Assembly (NCBI RefSeq): GCF_000188695.1
Contig: NW_004457740.1
Coordinates: 434,165-464,383 of the forward strand
Reading direction: 5' to 3'
Length of the DNA stretch: 30,219 bases
DNA from: Salpingoeca rosetta
Lineage: Eukaryota; Opisthokonta; Choanoflagellata; Craspedida; Salpingoecidae
The translations under genes and the position numbers were made by a program. Below are positions 2,549 through 28,100 of the stretch, one piece after another. The notes under the pieces were generated by a model. It made no database searches. It worked only from the letters and a program-made list of their open reading frames with translations, and was not told the origin of the DNA. How positions within the stretch are numbered: the stretch's first letter is position 1; each line of letters begins with the position of its first letter.

Positions 2549-2943
2549 GCGAGGAGGGAAGCAGTAGTAGGCGTGCGTGTTTGTGCGAAGTGTGCGTGTG
2601 TGTCTGAAGATGGGTTGAAGGGCAAAGGGGTGAGGTTTAAATGTTTGGTTGTGTGAGAGGGTTGGTTGCTTGCTCTCGAAGTGAAAGTTTGAGTTGAGTG
2701 TCTTTCAGTTGGTGCCGTTGCTGTTGGCTTGCGTGGTGGGTTTGTGTATGGGTAGCTGGTGAGTGGTTGTCTCTCTTTTGTGTGTGAGTGTGTGTGGTTG
2801 TGTGTGTGGCGTTTTTGTGCAATGTGCAATAAGCCAAAGCAAGCAAGATGGCAGAGGGAAGCCAGGGAAGTAAGGGAAGAGGAGATGGTGAAGGAGGAGA
2901 GGTGCAGGGAGAGGAGGAGGGAACGTACAACACACACACGTAC

Positions 2944-3028
<85 letters not shown>

Positions 3029-3092
3029 CAACAAAAAAAATCGCCACACCAACAAGCAACTCAGCACGCAAGGAGCAGAAGAAGGAAGGAGC
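2549..3092 (+). other. Intergenic region between the RagA and receptor-kinase genes
   Basis: Non-coding, same-strand spacer of 544 bases holding the RagA 3' region and the presumed promoter and 5' UTR of the kinase gene. The (CA)n block at about 2945-3024 dominates its second half and ends about 70 bases before the ATG. No clear TATA box or poly(A) signal was seen. Confidence 0.7.
2945..3024 (+). repeat. (CA)n microsatellite upstream of the kinase start codon
   Basis: About 80 bases of near-perfect CA. Confidence 0.97.
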
Positions 3093-10699
<7,607 letters not shown>

Positions 10700-10898
10700 T
10701 CATTCCATGAGCAAGTGCTGCACATCTTCATCAGCATCACTGCGCAAACTCTCATCCGAGTCCTCCTCATCCTGGCTCACGTCCACACGTGCGGTTGCCA
10801 CCTCTTCGTGTGTACCATCACCAGCATCTTGTTGCCCCACGTGCCATCCTTGTTGCTCTTGCTCTTCCGGTCCTTCTTGTTCTTGGTGTTGGCGTTGG

Positions 10899-10929
<31 letters not shown>

Positions 10930-13900
10930 GATGCAGCAGCTCTTGCTGGTTGTCGTGATGATGGTCGTGGGGAGCAGCCACTTCTGCCGAAAACTGCACC
11001 GCTTGCCCCCTTGCCGTTGCTGTATTTGTCGCCGGTGTTGTCGAGGTTGCTGTTGCTTCACGTTCCGTCATGGCGTGTGCGTGCAAGGGCACAGCAGTGC
11101 CCGCTGACTTGTCCAGTTGTGCTGTCACTTGCGTCCCCGCTGGCGTCGCGCGGCCGCTGCCATACTTGCCCAGCGTGGACAGAGACGTCATCTGCGAAGC
11201 AAAGTGGCGTTTCATCTTGTCCAGGAGCCTGGCGTGCTGCGTCCGGCGATCGCGCAGCAGCTGCTGGTTGCTGGCATACAGTCTGTCCACTCGGTACTGC
11301 AGCTCTGCGTACTCGCGTTTCAGCTTCGCCGCCTCCCGCTCCTTGGACGACAGCTGCTGTTGCAGATCGTGCAGCTGGGTGGACGCGTGTTCCGATTCGT
11401 CGCGCGCTGCGCGTGCATCCCTCTCCGCATGTACGGCCCGCGTCTCAAAGTGCTGCGCCTTCTCTGCCAGCGCTGACACCGCCTCCTCTGCGTTTCTCGC
11501 TCGCGTGCGCGCCACCTGCAGCTGCCGTGTGAGGTCGTCCACCACCGCCCTGTTGGCGTGTGCTGTCCGCTGCGCCTCCTCCTCTGCTTGCTCCTTCCGC
11601 GCGTGGGTGTCCGCAATTTGCCGCCGCAGCTGTGCGATTTCGCTGTGCGCGGCATCCCGTGCCACCAGTGCAGCCTGCAGTTGCGTCTCCGCGTCGCTCA
11701 GTGCCTCGTTCTTCTGCTTCAGCACCGCCACTTTGCCTCGCAGCTTTGCCGCCTGCTGCTGCAACGCGGCCTGCTCCGCGTTCGCCGTTTGCACGGCCCT
11801 GTCCGTCTCCTGTGCGCGTGATCGCAGCGCATCTGCCTCTGCCTGCAGCGCGTGCAGCTGCTGCTCGGCATGCTCCTTGGCCGTCTTGGTGGAGGCAAGT
11901 TCCTGCTCCAGCTTCTTTGCCCTCTCCAGCGAGAAGTCGTGTCGTTCCTGCAAGCGCCTGGCCGTTGCTTCCTGCTCCGTCGCCGTCTTTGCCAGGCGCT
12001 CAGTCTCCTCCCGCAGCTTCATGTTGTCGCGGAGCGCCTCGCCCAGCTGTGACTCCACCGCCGTCTTCACCCCCAGCGCAGACTGCAGCTCGGCCTTAAA
12101 CGCCTTCACCTGCTGCTGTACGCCGGCCACGCGCTGCTTCGCGTCGTCCTCGCTGCGCTGCAGACGTGACTGCGCCTCCGAGGCGGCGCGATCAGCCTCC
12201 GCCTCGAGCTCTCCCGCCCGGCGCTGGGCAGCCTGCAGGTGCCGCGTCATGTCCGCGTTGTGCCGTTCGAGTGACTCCTTTTGCGACTGCAGCGTTGCGC
12301 ACTGTGCACGCAGGGCGTCCATGGCGCCCTTGGTTTCCTGCTCCTGCGTGCTCAGGTCATGGCAGCGCGTTTGGGAGGCGGCGACCTGCGAGCGCAGCGC
12401 TATCAGCTCCTGCTGGGCCATCTCGTGCTTGCGCGACAGCTGCGCAAACTCCACGGAGATGTTGTCGAGCGCCGTGCGCACCTTGCCAAAGGCGTTGAGC
12501 ACGGCCATGAGGTGCTGCTGCGGCACCGACGCTGACGACGACAACGAGGCAGTGGTGGAGGTGGAAGTGGACGTGGAAGCGTAGGCCGAGGCCAGCACAT
12601 GCGCGGGAGGGAGTGCGCGTGACTGCAAGAGCACCATTGTGGAGGGGCGCACGCCATCTGCTGCTGCTGCTGCTGCTGCGGCCATTGCGGCGGAAGCGGA
12701 TGAGTAAGACCCTATGCTGGGGTTGGAGTTGGTGGCACTGGCGTTGCCACCAGAGTGATGGCTGTACGGCGGCGTTGGTGCTGTTCTTGTCGCTGTTGCT
12801 CGCGCTGCCGCTTGCTCAGCCATGAGCGCGTTGTACTGGCGGTCAAGGGCTTCCTCGAGGGCGGCAAGGGTAGAGTGTGCACCTGTCAACTGCGTGGCGT
12901 TGGAGTCCAGGGCGGACTGCACTTCTGTGACGTGTTGCGCATGCCGCTGCTTGAGCTCTTCCCTGTCCTTGGTCAAGTCCTCGACAAGCTTGATCTTGCT
13001 GGCGCGGACCTGCGTGAGCTCCTGCTTCAGCCGCGCAATCTCTTCCTGCAGTTGCGTGCGGTTGTGGAGCAGGGCGCGCACGGTGTACTCGGTGGACCGC
13101 GCAAAGGCTGCGGCTGCGGGGCCGTCTGGTTTCATGGACAGGGACGCAGGCAGCGTCTGGGAGAGCGGATCGTGCTGGGCTTGCTGCTGTGTGCTGTCGT
13201 GGCGTGCCGTCGCTGCCATGAACGAGGAGGAGGAGGAGAGGTTTGCTGTCGACTGCACTGGCATCATTGTTGAGGAACGCCCTTGCTCGTCAAACCCAAG
13301 GGTGGTGTTGTTCAAGTGTTGGGTGGCAGCTGGCGTGGTTGCGGTTGCTGCGAAGGTGTCGGATGCATGTGGCAGCTGCAGCTGCTTGAGCATGCGCTGG
13401 AGCTGGGCGACGCGGGTTTTTGCGCGGGCAAGGTCTGCGTGGAGGGCGGCCTTGTCGTCGAGGGCCCGCTGCAGCTCAGCGGTGCGGGTGGAGGTGGAGG
13501 ACTTCTGCTCCCTGGCCAGGTCTTGAAGCTGGGCCTCCAGCTGCTGCATGGCCTGCTCACGCAAGTGCGCGTCGCGCTCGTAGCCGGCCCGCACGCTGTC
13601 GAGCACGTCCTGCTTTGCGGCGAGGGCGGAGTCGAGGAGGTCGATGCGCTGGTTGAGGGCGTCCACCTCGGCCTGCAGCGTGTCTGCGCGGGCAGTCTCG
13701 TCGGCGAGGAGCTGCTGGTGTTGCCGCTTCTGGCGCTCCATGGCAGCCTCGAGCTGTTCCATGTCTGCAGCGTGGCGTGCCTGCATGGCATCCATCTCGC
13801 GCTGCAGGCTGTGTCGATCGGTGCCATTGTCCCCGAAATCATGATGTGTGGCATCGTCGCCATTTGCGGTGCGGACGGCGGACGACAAGAGCCTGCTGGT

Positions 13901-14545
13901 GTTGCTGGCTTTGCTTCTTGGGGATGAGGCAGGGTCCATTGACGCTGTGGTGTCCATCACATCCTGCAGCAGGCTGGTCATGAGGTCGGCGGTTGTTGTC
14001 GTTGTAGTTGTTGCTGCTGCTGTGTCGCCATCCATGTGGAGGTGCCCGCCGTGGTGTTGCTGGTGGAAGAGCACTGTTTCCTTGAATGCGTCGATGTGGC
14101 GTTGTAGCTGGTGGCGGTACCTGGCTTCCATGTCCTGCAGCTCTTGTTCGTGCGCATGTTCCAGGTCTTCAAATTGTTTTTCGTACGCCTCTCTCTGCGC
14201 CTTTAATCGCTGCTGCAACCGTTCCACCTCTTGCTGCAGCTGTTGATGTGGTTGTGGTTGTGGTTGTGGTTGTTGATGTGGCTGTAGTTGTGGTTGTGGT
14301 TGTGGTTGTTGATGTGGCTGGTGCTGTATCTCCTCGTGTCGAGCAGTGTGACCGTGGTTCTCTTGCTGATCATGCCGTTGCTGCGCCTCACCGTGTCGAG
14401 CAGTGTGACCATGGTTCTCTTGCTCCTCCTGCTGCTGCTGGATCTCGTGTCGACCGCCACCATCATCACGACTGCCGCCACTGTGGCGACGACTGCCGCC
14501 ACCACCTTCACTGCTGCAGTTGTTGTCGTCTTCCATGGTTGTCAC
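10700..14545 (-). CDS. Large coiled-coil protein, single exon, 1281 aa
   Basis: Open without interruption for 1281 codons from an ATG at 14545. I recognise no enzymatic domain. Residues about 1-30 are Gly/Ser/Asp-rich, and about 30-105 are Gln/His/Pro-rich, with ENHGHTARH occurring twice and PQPQPH-type repeats. From about residue 105 it is heptad-rich coiled coil with blocks such as LQQRLKAQREAYEKQFEDLE and ALDDKAALHADLARAKTR. This is interrupted by low-complexity Ala/Ser/Thr segments (poly-Ala near base 12670, STSTSTSTT near 12560). The C-terminal region has a poly-Gln run (bases about 10902-10930) and an acidic end. The composition resembles golgin, centrosomal or myosin-tail-like scaffolds, but this class gives false matches easily, so no family is assigned. 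It has no intron, unlike PRP8 and the kinase. The Gln run and high-GC coding create long antisense frames that are shadows. Confidence 0.85.
14335..14430 (-). repeat. Tandem coding duplication in the coiled-coil protein N-terminus
   Basis: Two copies of a roughly 65-base segment encode the ENHGHTARH-containing peptide twice. The + strand text tcgagcagtgtgacc recurs with few changes. Confidence 0.8.
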
Positions 14546-14581
14546 AGTCAGTTTTGAAATGGGTTGAATTTCAGGCCACCA

Positions 14582-14619
14582 CTGATTTCAGCTTTATCGT
14601 CTGATTTCAGCTTTATCGT
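14582..14619. repeat. 19-bp perfect tandem duplication upstream of the coiled-coil gene
   Basis: CTGATTTCAGCTTTATCGT occurs twice back to back, and a third copy starts (CTGATGTCAG) before diverging. It lies 37-74 bases 5' of the ATG at 14545, so it is in the likely 5' UTR or core promoter. Confidence 0.9.
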
Positions 14620-15410: not shown

Positions 15411-15509
15411 CCATTCATTCTCACACACTTACACTCCCGCATACACATGCTCACCATGGCATCGCTTCCAAACCCAATCATGGCAGGTTGAGACGCGTGA
15501 TCGTGAAGG

Positions 15510-17363
15510 ATGACGATGACGATGATGGCGTCCTTCAATACACGCTGCTGCTGCTTGTTTCCGTTGCTGCTGGCAGTGGTGCTGGTTGTGATGACACCGC
15601 TTGCACAAGCCAGGCCCATTGCTGCTCGGCACCGCCGCGAAGTGACCGCATACTCTCTGGAGGAAATCGGTGCGGCTGGATCCAACTTTGTGGTCGACCA
15701 CTTTGGCGCCCTGCCTGGCGTGACAGACCCGCGGCGGTACACAACCGCGTTCTCCTCCTCCGCCACCATCGCCGTCATCAACGGCGTCACTTCCCTCACG
15801 CCATGCATTGCCGCGTGCGAGCTTGATTCCGAGTGTCTCGGCATCTTTTACTGGCACGTCCCAAACGGCGACGTGCGCTGCTATCTCCTCTCGGACCTGG
15901 GCACGCCCGGCGGCATCACCACTGCCACCGTCTCCCTCAGCCTGCGCCGTTTGTTCCCCACCACAAGCAGATCTACAAGTGCAACAACGACCACCACCAC
16001 ATCAACCACATCCACAACTACATCAACCACCACCACAACCACCACAACAACCCCAACCACTACAGCAACCACAACCACAACCACCACTACATCCACAACC
16101 ACCACAACCACCACAACTACAACCACAACCACCACAACCACCACAACTACAACCACTACAACCACAACTTTCGGGACACCAACAGTGTACGACATCATCC
16201 AAACAAAGCCGCAGTTCTCGTACCTGCTGCAAGCTGTGCAGGCCGCAGGCTTAGAAGCGGCACTGCAAACAACACCACACATTACGTTCTTCGCACCAGA
16301 CAATGACGCGTTCGAGGACGCGTTTTCCCCAGCGGAGCTGGCAAACCCATCCCTGCTGGGCAGCCGTCTGGCAACCATGCTGCTGGGCCACGCTGCAACT
16401 AATCGATACACGGTATACGGGCTGTTTGTCAGTAACGGCGCGGTGCTGCCAACGCTGAATGGGCAGTCGTTTCTCTCTGTGGTCGTGAACCTCAACCTCA
16501 TCTACATCAACGGCGCGCAATTGGTTGATGGCAACTTTGTCGCCTCCAACGGCATTGTGCACGAGATTGACGCCGTCCTACTCACCGAGCTTCTCACCAC
16601 CACGACCACCACGAGCACCACGACCACCACCACATCGACAACGACGACCACAACCTCAACCACAACTACAACACTGCCCGGTTCAACGACAACCACCACA
16701 ACCACGACTGCAACCACGACTACAACTACCACCACAACCACGACTACGACTACAACCACAACCACGACTACGACTACAACCACGACTACAACCACGACTA
16801 CAACAACGACGACAACGACGTCCACAACGTCGAGCACATCCACAATGACACTGCCAAACCTGGTGTCCTTTGTGAACAGTGACAGTCGCTTCAGCATGTT
16901 TGCGTCCCTGATTGATTCCTCCTTCTTGGAGCCGACCCTGAGCAACCTTGGGCAGCAGTTTACGTTCTTCATTCCCACAGACGAAGCCTTTGCCAAGGTG
17001 CCGCCAGCGGTGCTTGCAGAGCTGCAGAGCAGCCCGCTGGAGCAGCGCCGCTTCATCTTGTACCACATGCTCCCTCGCCGGCACACAGCAGCCACACTGC
17101 GCCACGTCGCCCCGCACGTGTACACGTCACTGGTTTCCAGCGAACCCAACCTGCTTGTCAGGAACATTGGCGGCGTGCTCTCTGTCAACGGCGCAGACAT
17201 TGTGGCAGAGGACATTGAGTTTCAACACGGCCTCATCCACGCCCTGGACCGCGTCCTCTACCTCGACTACACCACAACCACAACCACGACGACCTCCACG
17301 ACAACCTCTACCACAACCACCACAACCACGCCCGTCCCAGCCTCCAGCAGCAGCGTCATGTGA
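15510..17363 (+). CDS. Secreted FAS1 (fasciclin) protein with PAN-like module and Thr-rich linkers, 617 aa
   Basis: Predicted extracellular adhesion or matrix protein. The N-terminus has a hydrophobic signal peptide (about residues 8-35, ending near PLAQA). A Cys module follows with C99, C103, C109 and C124 in CIAACELDSECLGIFYW, resembling a PAN/apple-type fold; that call is tentative. Three almost pure Thr segments (about 150-222, 360-446, 588-607) are likely O-glycosylated stalks. They alternate with two FAS1 domains at about 224-358 and 448-586. Both show the H1 and H2 signatures of the family: TFFAPDNDAF and TFFIPTDEAF, then NGIVHEIDAVLL and HGLIHALDRVLYL. The chain stops at SSSVM with no membrane helix or GPI signal, so it looks secreted. 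It is a single exon. An ATG in the same frame a few codons later could be the true start. Confidence 0.88.
   Translation: MTMTMMASFNTRCCCLFPLLLAVVLVVMTPLAQARPIAARHRREVTAYSLEEIGAAGSNFVVDHFGALPGVTDPRRYTTAFSSSATIAVINGVTSLTPCIAACELDSECLGIFYWHVPNGDVRCYLLSDLGTPGGITTATVSLSLRRLFPTTSRSTSATTTTTTSTTSTTTSTTTTTTTTTPTTTATTTTTTTTSTTTTTTTTTTTTTTTTTTTTTTTTTFGTPTVYDIIQTKPQFSYLLQAVQAAGLEAALQTTPHITFFAPDNDAFEDAFSPAELANPSLLGSRLATMLLGHAATNRYTVYGLFVSNGAVLPTLNGQSFLSVVVNLNLIYINGAQLVDGNFVASNGIVHEIDAVLLTELLTTTTTTSTTTTTTSTTTTTTSTTTTTLPGSTTTTTTTTATTTTTTTTTTTTTTTTTTTTTTTTTTTTTTTTTTTTSTTSSTSTMTLPNLVSFVNSDSRFSMFASLIDSSFLEPTLSNLGQQFTFFIPTDEAFAKVPPAVLAELQSSPLEQRRFILYHMLPRRHTAATLRHVAPHVYTSLVSSEPNLLVRNIGGVLSVNGADIVAEDIEFQHGLIHALDRVLYLDYTTTTTTTTSTTTSTTTTTTTPVPASSSSVM
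15985..16170 (+). repeat. Thr-codon minisatellite (ACN)n in the first FAS1 linker
   Basis: Coding repeat of ACCACAACC-like units. Reading the other frames gives His/Asn- or Pro/Gln-rich shadows. A second array lies at about 16593-16845 and a third at about 17268-17330. Confidence 0.9.
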
Positions 17364-17995: not shown

Positions 17996-20900
17996 TCAGG
18001 CAAACATGTCCTCACGATCCGCAGCATATTCCTCGGCACTCTCTTCCAATGCGCCAAACGACTGGAAGTGGTTGGGACGGTGAACCTCATGGTAGTACTC
18101 CTGCAACACACACATACGACAGCACACCGCACATGGGCAGTGAGCGACAGGGTTGAAAGCAGACACACAGAGACAGAGAGACAGACACGGGGAAGAGGTG
18201 CGGTATGCAAGGGATAAAGGAGGAGGAGGATGACGGATGTGCAGCAAAACCAAGACATACAGACATACACACGCACACAGATAGACACACACACACACAC
18301 ACACACACACAGAGAGATAGACACGCACACGCACACAGATAGACACACACACACATATCCACACACCTTGGGGTTGGCGAGCTGGAGAGAATAGCGCATA
18401 GCGGTCTTGTGCTTGGCGCCAACAAAGTTGTAGTTCCAAGAGCCTTCCGCGGGCGTCATGAAGAAGCCGTAGAAGCGATCGGACAGCAGCATCTGCACCT
18501 TCTCGTAGTGCTGGGGCGAGTAGCCCTCCGGGTTGCCGCTCTTGTCCTTGTTGTTCTTGCCCCACTCAAATCCGGACACGGTGAGCTTGTAGGCCGTGAG
18601 GGACACGGAGCCGGGCGTGAAGCTGCACGTGATGATGCACGTCTTGTCCAGCTCCCACTCCTCGTGATCGCTCATGATGCGGGCGTGCGTCGTCACGTCA
18701 ATCGGCGACAGCTGCGGCAGCTCGCTCGGCTGCGTGTGGATCCAGCCGAGCGGCTCCAGGTCGTCCAGATACTCGTGGTCAGGCAGCTGCGTCGGCAGCG
18801 TCACGCTCTGGTGCGTGCCGTACTGCGGCACCATCACAATGCAGTGGATCTCCTTCACCTGCGGGTTGTCCGGCGGCGACTTGCCGTACAGGTAGCCGGC
18901 AATCTGCGTGCGCAGGTCGCTAATCACCACAAACTTGGTCAGCACGTTCTTGGGCAGGATGTACGTGTAGCCCGTCTCGGAGATGTCGTCGTTGACGTAA
19001 ATGTGCTTGGTGCGCAGCGGGAGGTTGGTGGAGCTGATGGCACGCACGCGCCAGTCCGTCTTGGAGGAGAAGGCCGCCCGCTCGTAATTGGTGGTGGTGT
19101 GCGTGATAATCTCGTCGCCGTGCACGTTGGTGGTCTTGGTGGCCGTGGAGGTGAGCGCGCTCTGCTCGCGCGTCTGCTTCTCAATCTCCGCAATCTGCTG
19201 CCGCTGCTGCGACGGCGCAGAAATCTCCATACCCAGGATGATGTCGCGAATCTCAGACTGCGTGAGGGACGCCGTGTTGACGTTGTTCTTCTTGCCGTAG
19301 TCGGTCAGGATGAGGTCCTTGAGCGCAACCTCGACGCGGATCCACTCCTCGTCCGACAGCGACGGCCAGATGTGGTGCGGCTCCGTGATGGTCGTCTTGT
19401 CCGGCCGCAGGATGCGCTTGGCCTTGTCGATGTTCACGTGCAGCGCACGCAGGATGAGGATGAGGCGCGAGAACGCCGTGTACGAGGAGATGTTGCGCAG
19501 CCAGTCGTCGTAGAGGTTGAACAGCACCATCTGCGGCTCCGTGGCCTTGAGAATGAGGTCCCCAAACTTCTCCACCTTGAGGCACGCCTGGAACGGCAGC
19601 TGCAGCTCAGAGCCCTTGATGACAATGTTGGGGAAATCCAGGCAGTGAACCTCGAGTGGGTCAAGCATGCCCTTGCGCGTGACGATAATCTGCTTCGGCT
19701 GCTCCTCCACGGGAAGCGAGCGAATCAGGGCAGCGACTTCCTCAGCAGTCTTCCACTTGGCCAGCTGGGACAGACGCTTCTGGCCAGCCCACACAGAGGT
19801 GTGGATGATCTTCAGGAACAGCTGGCCCGTGCGCGGGTTGAAGATGAAGATGGCGCCGTTGATGGGTTTCGTCTGCGAGGGGTTGTATGTTTGAGAGACA
19901 AGGAAAGCGCGTGCGTGCGTGCGTGCGTGAGCGAGTAAGTGAGCGAGTAAGTGAGCGAGTGAGTGAGTGAGTGAGTGAGTGAGTGAGTGAGTGAGTGAGT
20001 GAGTGAGTGAGTGAGTCGTTGGTTGAGCCAAAGGGGGCATGTGAATCAGTGGAAAAGAGAGCAAGACACAACAAGAAAACAAAAGAAACCCACACAAACC
20101 AACACTCAAACATCACCCAAAAACAACACAAACCCAACACAAACCAACACGAAACAGTGAACATGGCAAGCAGCGCCCCCAACTCACCGTCAAGTTGCCT
20201 TCAAAGGTCTTGTGGATGGTGACGCGGTAGACGTTGGTATCATCAACAAACCAGATAATCTGGTTGGAGAAGAGCTCGTTGTAGTTCTGGGACGACAGGT
20301 ACGGCTCCGTCGGCTCGGACGAGTACAGCTGCAGGCCCTTGCGAATGCGCTCACGCAGCACATACAACGCGGGGTTGGCCTTGATAATCTTGGCCATGGC
20401 CTGCTGCAGCAGCACCTTGCAACCCGGGAACCAGTTGCCAAAGGCAGAGTGCAGGTTGTACGCCAAGTCAATGGCAATCAGCACACCCGTTGGCGAGGGA
20501 TAGATGGACATGTTGTCCGTGGTGTAGTCGAGGAACTTGGCGCGGGAATAGCGCTCCACATCGTGGCTGTCGTAGTCGCCCCAGCGAAGCTGCACATCGA
20601 GCCAGTAGCGGTCGGAGGTGGTCGCGTCCATGACGTCGTGCGTGTCCGCGAGCAGGGAAGGCTTGGAGATGGGCCACTTCTGCGAGGCAAACAGCAGGAT
20701 GTCGGCACAGCTCGAGTTCATCTTGTACGACTTTCGCGGGTGGATCGACTCCTTCTGCACCGTGTCAATCTCAAGCGCATCCAGCTCCTGATCAAACACT
20801 TGGCACCTGTTTTGTGGGGGTTTGGGGTTGGCAAAGCAAAACAAAGGCAAACGAGCATGGATTACCACAGTGTGAGAACAGCGCTCGCAAAGACAAACCC

Positions 20901-21216
20901 ACTCGCAATGAACGATGACGATGACGATGACAACAACAACAACAACAACACAACTACCAGCAGCAGCAGTAATGACATGGCAAGGGACAAGAAAACAAGA
21001 ACTTACAGATCCATGACCACGCTCTCGTGGATCTTCTGCCACAAATGCGCGCGGAAGATCTGGATGAGGGAGATCTTGAGCGTGGGAATCTTGCCGTGCA
21101 TGAAGATGCCGGTAAGATCCAGCTGCACCTGGAACCCAACGTACACGTTGGCGCGGTTGATGGTTGGCGACCACCACAGCGTGAAGCGGCGGTTGGGAAT
21201 CTGGTTCAGACCAGAG

Positions 21217-21248
<32 letters not shown>

Positions 21249-22145
21249 GCTCTCCTCAAAACCGCTGTTGTGCGTGACCAGAAAGTCCGCGCGCAGGAAC
21301 CGCTTGTTGCCGTCCACGAAAAAGCCGACGTATGGCTCCGGCTGCTCAAGCTGGCGCACGGCCGCAATCTTGTACGTGGTGCACTCGCCAGCTTCTGCAT
21401 GAGTGCCCGCCTCGCCGAGGGACACCACCTGGCGGTACATGAGCAGGTTGCTCTGCACGGCCTCCGGCAGCTGCGTGTACTCCTCCACCGTCATCTCAAA
21501 CAGCGTGCTGTCCTGTGGCTGTTGTGCCTGGGGCATCGCGGCGCCGTTGACGGAGGCATCGCCCGTGGCTGCGGTGGCGGCACGCAGGGCTGCGGCCTTG
21601 AGCTTGCGTGCGACTTCCTCCTGCTGCTCATCAACAGAGAGGTGCGCAGAGGGCTTGAGGCAGAGAATGTGGTTGCCTGTGACCACGAGCGGCTCCACGT
21701 CAGAGCTGGCAACCGTCACCTCGTACAGGCGGGAGAGACCCGTGACCACGTGCTGCACGTTGCGCGGGGTGCCGTCGTCACCCATGAGCTTGTCGCCCAC
21801 ACGCACGTCGCTGGCACGGACAATGTCACCAGAGGCAAGCAGCAGCTCGGTGGTTGTGCGGAAGCACGCCTTCTCCCAGAAGAGACCCTCCCAAGTGGGG
21901 AAGTACGTGCCCTTGAACAGCGTGTGCTCCAGGATGCCTTCGACACCACCCAGCGCCTGGATCATGTCTGTGCGGTAGTTGTTCAGGTTCCACAGCTTGC
22001 CATCGTGGCGCCTGCAGTGCGGGAGGAAAATTCAAGGGAGGAGAAGAGCGAGGGAAGGGGGACAGGAGGGTCGTGTGGTGAGGGGCAGGCGTGGTAGAGG
22101 GCCATTGCAAGTGAGTCCGCCACACTTCATGCAAAGGTCAACTGA

Positions 22146-22223
<78 letters not shown>

Positions 22224-25200
22224 CAGTCAACAGACGGCAGAGGGTGCAAGCAGAGGTATTGGAACTCACATGTGTGTCCACCAGAAGGGGTTATTGCGGA
22301 GAATCTGGTACTGCTTGAACTCTGTGCGCACACGCCAGCCCTTGTCGTAAGCGAGGGTGTGGCGGTCCTTCTGGAAGAGCGTGTTGATGCGCGGGATACC
22401 GCGATCCCACGAGTCCTCCAAGTCCTCAAGCGTCAGGCGGCGGTTCTGGGCGTTGGCCTCTTGCCGCTTCAGCGCAAACTCGGCCCACACGCGCTGCGAG
22501 TCGATAAACTCAGACTCCCAGGGCTGCAGGTAGCGGTACAGGTTGGGGATGACCTGGTCCTCCTCGTGAGACATGCCAGAGCGGAAGTGGGTGATGCCAA
22601 CGTCCGTCTGCTTGCTCCAGCGAAGATCCGACTGGGGAATCAGCACGTGACCCATCGACAGCATACCCAGGCCGCCAAGCTCCTTCGGGCTGCACACGTT
22701 GTACGTTTGAAAAAGGCAAAACAAAGCATTCATGGAAGGGGGGGGGGAAGAGAAATCACATGAGGTGAGGGCTGAAGCGCGCACGCGACTGAAGCACGAA
22801 GGGAGGACCAGAATCCCAGACGAGCAGCAGGGAAGACTTGACACACACACGCACGCACGCACAGAAGGAAAACAAAACTCACCAGTAGAAGACGACTGCG
22901 TGAATGCAAGGCGAGGAGACGATTGTTGGGGTGGGTGGAGTGGGTGGATGTGGAGGTGAAGACAACAGCGTGAGCGGTGAGGAGCAATAATGAACAAGCA
23001 TGCGCACACAAACCAGGCGATCATGACGCCAAAGAAGAAAAGAGGACAGCCAACACATGCACACCCACCCACGCCCACACACGCATAGCATACAAAGGCG
23101 TACACAAATACACTCTCTCCGCCCCCTCCCCCTCACACACACCCACGTGCAATGGCACAAAAACCAACCTGGAGGGAACCTGGAAGGCATCTTGGAGTTG
23201 AGACCAATCTTGACACGGGTCTGGATCTTGTTCTCGCACTTGACGAGGAGGTCGAGCAGCTCCTGCGTGTTGACGACGGCCTCCCGGAAGTAGGTCATGA
23301 GGCCAATGAGGGCCGTGTTCCACTTGTTGACCACCTTGGTGAAGGTGGTGGCGCCGGAGGACATGAGAATCTGGCGCACACGGTTGTGGAAGCGGGCCTG
23401 CGACTCCTCGTCGACGCGGAGGAAGGCCTGCGCGGTGCGCTCCTTGGTGATCTCGTTCTGCAGGTTCCACACGCCGTCGCGGTGGTTGGCGTCGTTGAAG
23501 GTGGCGCGGATCTTGGGCAGGATGCGCACGTCAAAGCCCGTCATGTTGAAGAGGAGGTTGGGGTTGTCCTTGCTGTACACGGAGGCGAAGCTGTTCTCCC
23601 ACTCAATGGTGGTGATGGAGCGCGGCAGGCGGTTCTTGATGTCCCAGAAGACGGCGCGGCCCAGGTTGACGTCGTGCTTCATGAGGCGCATGCGCGCGTC
23701 GCGCGGCCAGCACTTCTTGTTGTTGTAGCCAACAATGTTCTCGTTGTTGGGGTCTGGGTGCTCGGTGAGGTAGCGCTGGATGAGGTCGCGGGCCTCCTCA
23801 GCGGTGAAGCGGAAGAACATGTGAATGCGGTCGACGTACCGGGCGTACAGGCGAATCGGGTGCGCCGTCTCCGTCTCCACGCTCTCAAAGGTGTGGAAGT
23901 CGTTGGGCAGCGTGGGCGGGCCGGCCATCTCCGACGCGCGGTTGAGGCCGAGCACGAGGAGGTCCAAGATCAGGCCGTAAAACTGCACGATAAACGAGGC
24001 AAACTGCAGGCCGCGGATGATGCCGTACGAGTTGGTGTGGTTCATGTCCTTGAAGTTGATGACGACGTTGTTCTTCGCCGTCATGTAGTCGGCGACGTTC
24101 TGGTCCACCACCAGGCGCAGCAGGCGGTTGAGCACGGTGAGGTCAATCTTCTCGTACAGCTTCTCAAAGCGCGTCTCCAGCATGACGTTGCACTGGCCCT
24201 CGGACGTGTCCCACACGTCCTGCAGGTTGTTGATGCCCTGGCACCACTTGTACACGAGCAGCGGCGCGGGCTCCGTGTCGCTGGGCTTGACCCAGGCCGG
24301 GAAGAGCTTGCGCTTGTCCGCCTCGTACCACAGGTACTGGTCGAGGTAAGCGTCGGTGATCTTCTCCAGCGGCTCAATGTCGTACACGGGGATGAGGTGG
24401 CTGTACATGTCCATAAACTCAATGCCAACCTCCTTGAAGGCGCGCTGCGTGAGGAGGTGGCGCTTGATGCGCATGAGGGCCTCGTGCGGGTTGTCGTAGG
24501 CCTGCTCGATGAGGCCGAGCTCCTCGCGCTGCGACGAGTTGAGGCGGTTCTTCACGCTGTACGCCTCGCGCAGGCGCTCCAGCGCCAGGATGAGCAGCTT
24601 GGTGTCGTGCTTGTAGGTGAGCGGCGGGAAGGGGATGTGCTTGAAGCGGCGCGACTCGAGCCAGTGCACGGTGGTGGTGTAGATGGCGACGGCCTCCTCG
24701 GCGCTGATGTAAGGGCCGTCCTTGAGGTAGTTGTGCTGGCGCTCCTGCTCCGCCTTGAGGTGCAGGCGGGTGAGGCGGCCCAGGTTCTTCTTGCACACGG
24801 TCTTGTCGACGGTGGCGCCGCGGCGGATGCGCTCGCGGTTGTAATGAGCGGTGTTGGTCCACCAGTCGGCCTTGGCCTTGACGTAGCGCAGGATCATGTT
24901 CTCAATGGGCGTGGGCAGGCCGGGCACCTTCCAGGGGATGTTGGCCTTCCAGCAGCGCCACGCCTCGGAGAGATGCTGCATGATGACGCGGGCCTTGTTG
25001 GCCTTGACGCCCTCGGGCATCATGTCGAGGATGTCGTGCATGACTGAGGCGCGCAGCTCCAAATCGTAGTGGCTCTCCACGCGCTGCTTGGTCACCGTCT
25101 TGGCCACGCCCTTGTTGGTACGGCCCTCAAACTGGCGCGCAAGCAGGTTGCCGAGCCAGCGCTCGAGGAGGGGCACCACACCGCGCAGGAAGAACAGCCA

Positions 25201-26006
25201 CACGCGCCAGCCGGGCGCCCAGAAGCCAACGCCAGGGCCCTTGCCCACAGGTCCCGTCTGCAACCAGGACGAGGAGGGAGGGTGAGTGAAGGAGTGTGGT
25301 TGTCTGTGAGCAATAGCGGGGGATGTCTGTGTTTGACAAGGAGCAAGCAAACCGACAAACACCGAGTGGCAATCACCGAGTGCCAAACAGAAACACAAAC
25401 ACACGCACACGCACACACACACAACCATACGCACACACACACAGACATGCACACACACATACAAACAAACAAAACACACGCACACACACGAACGGACAAC
25501 GACGGAGACACTCACGTTGAAGCGATAGTAGATGATGTGCTTCAAGTCCTTGCACATGCGAATCTGACGCATGAGCTTGTACTTGTAGCGGTACATGCCG
25601 GTGAGTTGGCCGACATGGGCGAATGTGTACTGGAGACCGTCTGCGAGCTGGAACGCATCGACGTTACCGAGACGGTACTGCACGTGCGAGTCAACCACGA
25701 GCTTGGTCAAGCGCAGAATCTCACGAAGCACTGGGTATGAGATGATGATGATGATGATGATGTGTGCGTGGGGGTGAATGTGCATGTAGATGTATGGGCA
25801 TGCGTGGGAACATGTGGTGGTTGCACATGGTGTGATGCGCATCATGTGAGTTGATGAGACACAACAAAGAGTTTTTACGGAGTAGCAAGACAACAAGGGG
25901 CTTGTACAAAGTAGCAGCAGGACGACAAAAAAGGTGAGACGGGTCAAGACAGCTGCTCTTCAAGCACCCCCCGGCCACACACGCACACACACACACGCAC
26001 ACACAC

Positions 26007-26059
<53 letters not shown>

Positions 26060-27572
26060 AGCAGACACACTTACAATGGAAGGCGTTTCCGAAGCGGGAC
26101 TTCTTACGCTCCTTTGTGGTGAGCGTCTTGACGGGCTTGAGGTTGAAGTTGTAGTCGAGATGGAGGTAGTTGAGGTTCTTGCGGTGGATGAGAAGGTTGA
26201 GCATGTTGTGGCCCTGGCGACACACCTGCAGGCCGACCTCGACCCAGTCGAGGGTGGTGGACTGGAAGAACTTTGTCTGCTTGAAGGAGCGGAAGAGGGA
26301 GCGGCGCTTGCAGGGCTTTGGCGGGCGCTTCTTGAGAGCGTTAAGGACGAAGATCTTGAGCATCTTCTGGTAGGAGACGCGCACCTTGACGGGCTGTCCG
26401 GCGGGGCAGTGCTCCTGGTACCAGGTCTTGATGAGGGGCACGTCGATGGCGCGGCGCATGTAGCCGGAGCGGGTGTTGAAGGGGCGGGGCGCCCAGAGGA
26501 GGGCAATGGCGGCGGCGGTGCGGTCTGTGTAGAGCGGCGCCTCGGCCAGGAAGGGCTCCACCTCCTCCGGCAGGAAAAACTCCTCCGACTCGTCAAAGGT
26601 GTCTGTGGCGCGGACGGCCTGGCGGTGGGAGATGGGGTTGATGATGGGGTCGTAGTAGAAGGCGGGGAGGTCTGGGTCGTCCGTCTTGATGAACACGACG
26701 GGCGGGGTGTGGTACTTGCAGAGGTACACGCGACGGGGCATGCTGTTGTAGAGGTAAGGGAACGCGACGCGGTACTCCGTGCGGATGGAGTGGCGGATGA
26801 TGATCTTGTTGATGTCGTTGAACTCGTTCCAGTCCTCGTCGGCTGGGTTGAGGTCGCGGAAGAGCGGCTCAAACTTGGGGCCGCCCGGGATGGCGACGTT
26901 GAGCGCCTTTGCGGTGAAAAACGCCTTGGCGTCAAACAGGTGGAAGTAGTTGTCGTCGAGCAGGTCCGAGAGGAGGGAGCCCGAGAGGCGGAAGAGCGTG
27001 GCCATGATGGGGATGGTGAGGTACCACTTGCGGTAGGAGGGCCCGTTGACCATGCGCGTGTCCACGAGGGGCTTGTGGTCGTAGAACCACTCCCACACGG
27101 CAGAGTCCTCCTCCTCGTCCAGCTCCATCTGGATGGGATCGAGCGGGGGCACGTTCATGATGTTGTCGCCGTAGTCCAGCGGCGGCTCTTCGTCGTCAAA
27201 GGGCGGGAAGCGCATGCGCTTGAAGTGGCGGCGATCACGCTTCTCACGACGCATCATGATCCACATGGTACCCCACTGCGCAATGTAGATGGGCTCAATC
27301 ACCCATGGAATCTCGTTCACAAACGTGATGGCACCAGTGGTGTGGTACAGCACCTTGACATCGCGAATCTGTCATGTGTGTGTGTGAGCGTGTGTGTTGT
27401 GTGACCGTATGTGTGTGTGAGCGTATGTGTGTGTGTGTGTGTGTAACGTATATTGTGTGTGTGTGTGTGTGTGTGTAACGTATATTGTGTGTGTGTGTGT
27501 GTAACGTATATATATATTGTGTGTGTGTGTGTGTGTAACGTATATTGTGTGTGTGTGTTGTGTGTAACGTAT

Positions 27573-27610
<38 letters not shown>

Positions 27611-28100
27611 GAAACGGGTGGCTGCTTGCAACCAAGTGCATGAGTGCGTGCGCACACCGCACCACTGCTCATTCCCCGTGTACATTGCACCGACAGTGAT
27701 AGCAAGTGCCTTCCCCCCTCCCCCAATCCCCCACTGGTCCCCTGTTCCCTTTGCCATCAACCAACCGCCACCACTCGCCGCACTGTACCTGTTCCCATGG
27801 CATGGGCATGTTTTCGAGGAGCTTGATGACGGCGTGAGGCATGTACTTGAGGGCGCCGAGGTAAGCGCGCTTGTCGTGGCGGAACTTGCGGCTGGACATG
27901 TCACCATGGTTCTTGATGATGACACGAATCTGTGAGGGAGGCATGTCCTCCTTTTGCGGGTCGACAAAGCCAAACTTGCGCTTCTCTGCATAGCGGCGCG
28001 ACTGCAGCTGCTTCCACTTGCGTGCCTTCTCCTGCAGCTGCTCTTCACTTGGCGGGGACGGCGGCATGCCGGCTGCCGCCGACTTGCTTGCACTGCTCAT
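17996..28100 (-). CDS. PRPF8: PRP8 (PRPF8) U5 snRNP core splicing factor, 10 exons, with intein; 2525 aa precursor
   Basis: PRP8 scaffolds the spliceosome catalytic centre and contacts U5, U6 and both splice sites. Exons in transcript order: 28100-27789, 27368-26075, 25730-25516, 25257-23169, 22895-22883, 22689-22270, 22011-21007, 20806-20188, 19872-18367, 18100-17996 (7578 nt, every junction GT-AG and in phase). Near-identity to animal PRPF8 runs throughout: [79 protein letters not shown], the RNase H-like region, and the C-terminal JAB1/MPN domain ending ADREDMFA. Removing the 200-residue intein (residues 1497-1696) leaves 2325 residues, close to human (about 2335). The start [11 protein letters not shown] replaces the longer Pro-rich animal N-terminus; the frame stays open upstream, so the exact Met is uncertain. 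It is divergently arranged with PAF1. Confidence 0.97.
18288..18310 (+). repeat. Short (CA)n tract in the last PRP8 intron
   Basis: Within intron 18101-18366. On the PRP8 strand the donor itself begins gtgtgtggatatgtgtgtg. Confidence 0.85.
19907..20017 (+). repeat. (GAGT)n/(GCGT)n tetranucleotide repeat in PRP8 intron 8
   Basis: About 110 bases. On the PRP8 strand it reads (ACTC)n and sits 35-145 bases upstream of the acceptor, acting as a pyrimidine-rich stretch. Confidence 0.95.
21267..21866 (-). other. Mini-intein (200 aa) inside PRP8 exon 7
   Basis: In-frame protein-splicing element interrupting PRP8 between ...EKA and SGFEESMK. It starts with Cys1 ([14 protein letters not shown], block A) and continues with [12 protein letters not shown]. 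Block B is [10 protein letters not shown], with T63 and H66 of the TxxH motif. Block F is [17 protein letters not shown] and block G is VTHN followed by the extein Ser. All residues for a class 1 splicing reaction are therefore present: Cys1, block-B His, penultimate His199, Asn200 and Ser+1. There is no LAGLIDADG endonuclease. The middle (about residues 72-122) is an Ala/Gln-rich linker. The extein flanks are continuous with PRPF8 of organisms lacking the insertion. From memory, the same site and similar block text occur in the Cryptococcus neoformans PRP8 intein, so it looks allelic to the fungal Prp8-a site. Confidence 0.95.
22148..22219 (+). repeat. (CA)n microsatellite in PRP8 intron 6
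   Basis: On the transcribed strand it reads (GT)n. It lies in intron 22012-22269. Confidence 0.95.
22883..22895 (-). other. 13-nt microexon of PRP8 (exon 5)
   Basis: The exon TCGTCTTCTACTG is flanked by acceptor cattcacgcag and donor gtgagttttg. Exon 4 ends in phase 1 (cca g) and exon 6 begins with c. Joining through the microexon gives FPPVVFYCPKELGG, against FPPVVFYTPKELGG in human PRPF8 as I recall it. Skipping it shifts the frame and deletes a conserved strand. Flanking introns are 273 and 193 nt. The exon 4 donor (ccag|gttggt) is weak. Confidence 0.9.
25977..26056 (+). repeat. (CA)n microsatellite in PRP8 intron 2
   Basis: Reads (GT)n on the PRP8 strand, about 20 bases after the exon 2 donor gtaagtgtgtc. 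Confidence 0.95.
27371..27604 (+). repeat. (GT)n array with five TAACGTATATTG spacers in PRP8 intron 1
   Basis: GT tracts are separated by TAACGTATATTG-type spacers starting at 27444, 27476, 27502 (longer, with extra TA units), 27536 and 27565. The intron is 27369-27788, and the array reaches almost to the acceptor of exon 2. Confidence 0.9.

Follow-up and report, generated by a model that had tools for sequence, protein, structure and literature searches.

The PRP8 gene of Salpingoeca rosetta carries an in-frame insert of 200 residues that is, in all likelihood, a mini-intein at site Prp8-a, excising itself through class 1 chemistry. The element (21.7 kDa; precursor residues 1497-1696) is encoded on the minus strand at 21267..21866 of the window, by which we mean the whole 30,219-nucleotide stretch of DNA that was analysed. 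An insert of this length, in frame and at these coordinates, had been called in the original prediction, which left the strand unstated; the coordinates proved exact.

Position and catalytic residues of the insert

Translated on the minus strand from 21866 to 21267, the insert gives 200 residues without a stop (CFRTTT...VTHN), within an open frame of 342 aa at 21003-22031 (-). Stop-free translation over 200 codons was found in only 100 of 20,000 composition-shuffled inserts. The boundary is exact and falls within a highly conserved stretch of PRP8. Against solved PRP8s, the frame tracks the human protein to A1506 and picks up at S1507, and the insertion point reads EKA/SGFEES, the equivalents of these two residues. 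We take this point to be site a, by the text of PMC6805012 and by the Cryptococcus flanks.

All members of the catalytic set that had been claimed (Cys1, TxxH, His-Asn and Ser+1) were found. Position 1 is a cysteine (C1, codon 21864-21866) at the head of Block A (residues 1-13, 21828..21866 (-)), the Block B motif is T63-G-N-H66 (21669..21680 (-)), and Blocks F and G (residues 179-200, 21267..21332 (-)) end in H199-N200, followed by Ser+1 (21264..21266 (-)), the first residue of the C-extein and the equivalent of human PRP8 S1507. Cysteines occur at positions 1, 69 and 162. Block names follow usage in PMC6805012; the limits of Blocks A and F/G were set in this analysis.

Could the 600 nt be a spliceosomal intron that is open and intein-like by chance? 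One in-frame GT-AG pair nearly coincides with the junction, and removal of its 603 nt would yield EKA-GFEES. However, this cut would delete the conserved S1507, and its donor, GTGCTT, is unlike PRP8's own donors, six of nine of which read GTRAGT. Among GT/GC-AG pairs lying no more than 60 nt from both ends, 42 keep the frame without a stop, and not one of them restores the empty protein. The single 600-nt cut that would restore it is bounded by TG...AC. On this reading, the protein homology seen at each end of the insert would also go unexplained. With no GT/GC-AG pair near the ends predicted to give an empty site, the intron reading was rejected, and we consider it extremely improbable.

The interrupted gene

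The identification of the host protein as PRP8 is supported by one unbroken alignment of extein residues 14-2325 to residues 22-2335 of human PRP8. The coding model (17996..28100 (-)) has ten exons with GT-AG joins, a TGA stop and a putative start codon. In coding order, the exons lie on the minus strand at 28100-27789, 27368-26075, 25730-25516, 25257-23169, 22895-22883, 22689-22270, 22011-21007, 20806-20188, 19872-18367 and 18100-17996. The fifth is a micro-exon of 13 nt, preceded by a GT-AG intron of 273 nt and followed by one of 193 nt. The seventh bears the intein, which separates an N-extein part at 21867..22011 (-), ending ...WEGLFWEKA, from a C-extein part at 21007..21266 (-), SGFEESMK...HESVVMD plus a split codon. 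By this model the precursor has 2525 aa and the protein without the insert 2325 aa and 271 kDa, somewhat above the spliced mass of about 265 kDa given originally. Simple repeats rich in (AC)n occur in PRP8 introns 6, 3 and 2 (window 22150-22220, 25400-25490 and 25980-26060, respectively).

The assembly (54,378,996 bases in 49 contigs) holds at least one PRP8 locus and at least one Hom_end_hint match, a single one of each being found. A second, empty PRP8 was sought in these 54.38 Mb and not found, counts here being lower bounds. Given a single locus, as a lower bound, and an otherwise intact gene, supply of this essential protein seems to require that the insert be excised.

Expected route of splicing

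If the insert behaves as its residues suggest, the transcript and the PRP8 precursor would both keep the 200 residues. C1 would attack the Ala-1/C1 bond in an N-S shift aided by T63 and H66 of Block B, after which Ser+1 would attack the thioester to give a branched intermediate. N200 would then cyclise with help from H199, freeing the intein, and an O-N shift would join ...EKA to SGFEESMK... to give intact PRP8. These steps follow established intein chemistry, and from that chemistry, together with the splicing reported in the literature for the Cryptococcus relative, we infer that the S. rosetta intein would splice as well. Judged from its sequence, the element is real and probably active. 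The earlier label 'apparently splicing-competent' has as its grounds the preserved catalytic residues and an undamaged host gene that is essential and apparently present once.

A dead intein, with residues intact, splicing lost and PRP8 functional with the insert retained, would fit the lengthened linker and the agreement with Cryptococcus at only 11 of 22 residues in Block F/G. Retention of every catalytic residue and the failure to find an empty second copy (again with lower-bound counts) speak against it, and we hold it to be very unlikely.

Family membership and lack of an endonuclease

Pfam assigns the insert to Hom_end_hint (1.6e-27, 97 bits), and no match to a Hom_end or LAGLIDADG family was found in it at E <= 10. 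Phage relatives (described below) offer a comparison, as the same library detects endonuclease families inside three of five of their inteins that were checked (L007, L022 and L024). Between Blocks B and F, the insert has a 49-residue Ala/Gln-rich linker (residues 73-121, 21504..21650 (-); 13 Ala and 6 Gln) and a motif, TVEEYTQLP. Since no endonuclease family is matched between these blocks, the insert is classed as a mini-intein, which agrees with the original prediction. An intein of this kind presumably cannot now home by itself and would be transmitted vertically.

Other family libraries add little. In PHROGs the best match (E 0.0018) was a family without an assigned function, and the one NCBIfam match, an intein-bearing radical SAM family, was weak, at 14.8 bits where the cut-off is 700.

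The closest solved sequences are three PRP8 inteins (67.0, 65.9 and 65.6 bits, E 1.9e-17 to 4.9e-17). Of these, 6mx6 is from Cryptococcus neoformans and 6mwy from C. gattii, and the segments shown for 6owu equal those of 6mx6. The next solved relative is the yeast VMA intein (25.4 bits, E 1.1e-4). This Saccharomyces VMA1 intein (PI-SceI) shares the Hint family and a Block A likeness over 53 residues, but it sits in another host gene, has an endonuclease and is a far weaker match.

A structure predicted from a thin alignment (earlier alignments that misplaced the linker and C-terminal blocks were not used) had a mean pLDDT of 63.9, with residues 54-66, TxxH included, below 50; a single-sequence prediction was useless (mean pLDDT 34.8). 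When the weak model was searched with Foldseek, 6mx6 and 6mwy ranked first (E 1.2e-8); TM-scores were low, at 0.36/0.50 for the former and 0.35/0.48 for the latter.

Comparison with the Cryptococcus PRP8 intein

The inteins of C. neoformans and C. gattii share with that of S. rosetta the class 1 set, the Hint family and the lack of an endonuclease. Within the limits of the human alignment and of the published account of the site, they are inserted at the same PRP8 residue. The originally proposed match to the Cryptococcus site fits the description in PMC6805012, which places the Cne intein at Prp8-a, in the 1585 loop. Splicing of the Cne intein is reported to be inhibited by Cu and Zn. The catalytic residues given there for Cne (C1, T62, H65, H170 and N171) align with those of S. 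rosetta.

Identity between the S. rosetta and Cryptococcus inteins is 34-36%. The S. rosetta intein is longer (200 residues versus 171) and has the 49-residue Ala/Gln-rich stretch that Cryptococcus lacks. Cysteines are at 1, 69 and 162 in S. rosetta versus 1 and 61 in Cne, where Cys61 precedes TxxH in place of Val62; valine is the commonest residue at this position according to PMC6805012. The motif between Blocks B and F is similar in the two (TVEEYTQLP and TVDDFVRLP in Cryptococcus).

Related inteins of phages and bacteria

Scans for related inteins yielded 24 phage or bacterial loci (15 + 6 + 3; L007-L030). Most are 36-46% identical to the S. rosetta intein over about its first 65-85 residues. 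The exceptions are L026 (57% over 37 residues) and L014, which matched over residues 1-200 with a best segment of 39%. Hom_end_hint was found in all five loci checked. Inteins with a visible end have 311-359 aa, except L014 with 138. By Pfam, the host protein is an ATPase or helicase in four of the five (AAA, ClpX-type or helicase domains), and the open frame of the fifth, L014, matched intein and endonuclease families only. On its phage contig, L014:4671-8093 (+) holds two inteins, the 138-aa Hom_end_hint mini-intein and then an Intein_splicing/LAGLIDADG element. Viral contigs scanned with the PRP8 C-extein gave six pattern matches, none confirmed as PRP8, and those scanned with the Cne intein gave 11 stretches, none confirmed.

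A tree was built from 18 of these inteins and three PRP8 inteins (S. rosetta and two Cryptococcus). The six loci left out were near-copies (L010, L018, L019), had no intein start (L017, L026) or had no visible end (L028). In the maximum-likelihood tree, the three PRP8 inteins stand apart from all 18 others (aLRT 97.1 / UFBoot 99; 96.4/98 on trimmed columns). Attraction between long branches (1.3 and 0.8) could have shaped this tree. Pairwise identity of the S. rosetta intein is 0.36 both to Cryptococcus and to the nearest phage intein, L007, and the Cne intein is 0.38, 0.37 and 0.36 identical to L027, L023 and L025 versus 0.36 to S. rosetta.

Origin of the intein

So, how did a Prp8-a intein come to lie in a choanoflagellate gene? 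Old vertical inheritance or horizontal homing between lineages, the alternatives posed in the original prediction, are a reasonable way to frame the question. Base composition shows no clear sign of recent import. The GC3 of the intein (0.815) is lower than the extein mean (0.888) and lies within the range of 107 sliding 200-codon extein windows (0.795-0.975), so the intein is not visibly a recent arrival.

Horizontal transfer from a fungus or another eukaryote by homing, with later loss of the endonuclease, has in our estimate an even chance of being the explanation. The tree joins the S. rosetta intein with those of Cryptococcus (97.1/99). Its site is where fungal Prp8 inteins lie, with few exceptions (PMC6805012), and PRP8 inteins are scattered among eukaryotes (PMC5784728). 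For a recent transfer, the identity to Cryptococcus, just 34-36%, and the host-like GC3 are unfavourable.

Both the depth of this divergence and the host-like composition would suit vertical descent from an ancestor that choanoflagellates shared with fungi about a billion years ago, with many later losses. So would the shared site and the shared non-catalytic motif T-V-(D/E)-(D/E)-(F/Y)-x-x-L-P. Such descent needs loss in animals and in many further lineages, and homing is known for inteins that have an endonuclease; we regard it as unlikely. A particular version, in which that ancestor already had a Prp8-a intein and S. rosetta has kept it in the core of the spliceosome as an endonuclease-free and possibly regulatory element, with no arrival by later homing, is a speculative proposal that we put forward tentatively.

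That the intein arose independently, out of a phage- or virus-type member of its Hint family, seems doubtful to us. The 36-46% identity over the first 65-85 or so residues speaks for such an origin, as does Block F/G of L014, which matches S. rosetta at 15 of 22 residues where Cryptococcus matches at 11. The AU test is compatible with such an origin, rejecting none of five alternative placements with phage inteins (p 0.086-0.319), although bp-RELL and c-ELW exclude one of the five, in which the S. rosetta intein is sister to L022. Against it stand the split in the full and trimmed trees and the common insertion site, which would have to be a coincidence.

Earlier records, host and significance

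The choanoflagellate genomes known to be public early in 2017 were those of Monosiga brevicollis and Salpingoeca rosetta. The S. rosetta intein is therefore very likely the one that Green et al. catalogued for Choanoflagellida, with which it shares protein and host group. Their 2018 catalogue of 104 Prp8 inteins gives Choanoflagellida under Prp8 in Table 1 and names choanoflagellates in the legend of Fig. 3 (PMC5784728), and the legend of the PRP8 intein tree of Green et al. 2019 abbreviates Choanoflagellida (PMC6805012). The intein is thus of a known family and already listed for its group, and the weight of novelty first placed on it is not supported. The word Salpingoeca is absent from the main texts of both papers. 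Among the titles and abstracts listed in a literature search, none describes a PRP8 intein of S. rosetta, and in the 2021 survey of horizontal transfer in this species (PMC7971027) 'intein' occurs in the reference list only and 'PRP8' is absent.

Further PRP8 inteins outside fungi are recorded in Amoebozoa and a green alga (PMC5784728 and PMC6805012); the former cautions that contamination from a fungus might explain the algal record. One is also recorded in Bathycoccus (PMC8528832).

The choanoflagellate host was identified with high confidence as S. rosetta by published oligos (from PMC11984502 and PMC10530576), five of seven of which match the assembly exactly, at two loci. The JNK guide and both genotyping primers fall in one 3-kb locus, with the primers facing inward, and both cRFXa primers face inward in the other. 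The remaining two, from p38, gave no match in the assembly, and the p38 gene may lie outside the contigs examined.

S. rosetta is closely related to animals and open to genetic work, genome editing included (PMC7314544), and so offers a native host outside the fungi for research on a nuclear PRP8 intein. Such research could ask whether splicing of PRP8 is under regulation and whether the Prp8-a intein is an old element or a mobile one.

Other features of the window

Beyond PRP8, the window contains Kelch-repeat frames at 2892-4295 and 4917-6959 (+), the second followed by an ephrin-receptor-like stretch; the two perhaps form one gene (2892-6959). Frames at 8060-10035 (+) match tyrosine/serine-threonine protein kinase. 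At 10700-14587 (-) there is an open frame of 1295 aa that looks coiled-coil-like by eye and has no Pfam match at E <= 0.001. Two fasciclin domains with adjoining long threonine-rich stretches are encoded at 15507-17363 (+).
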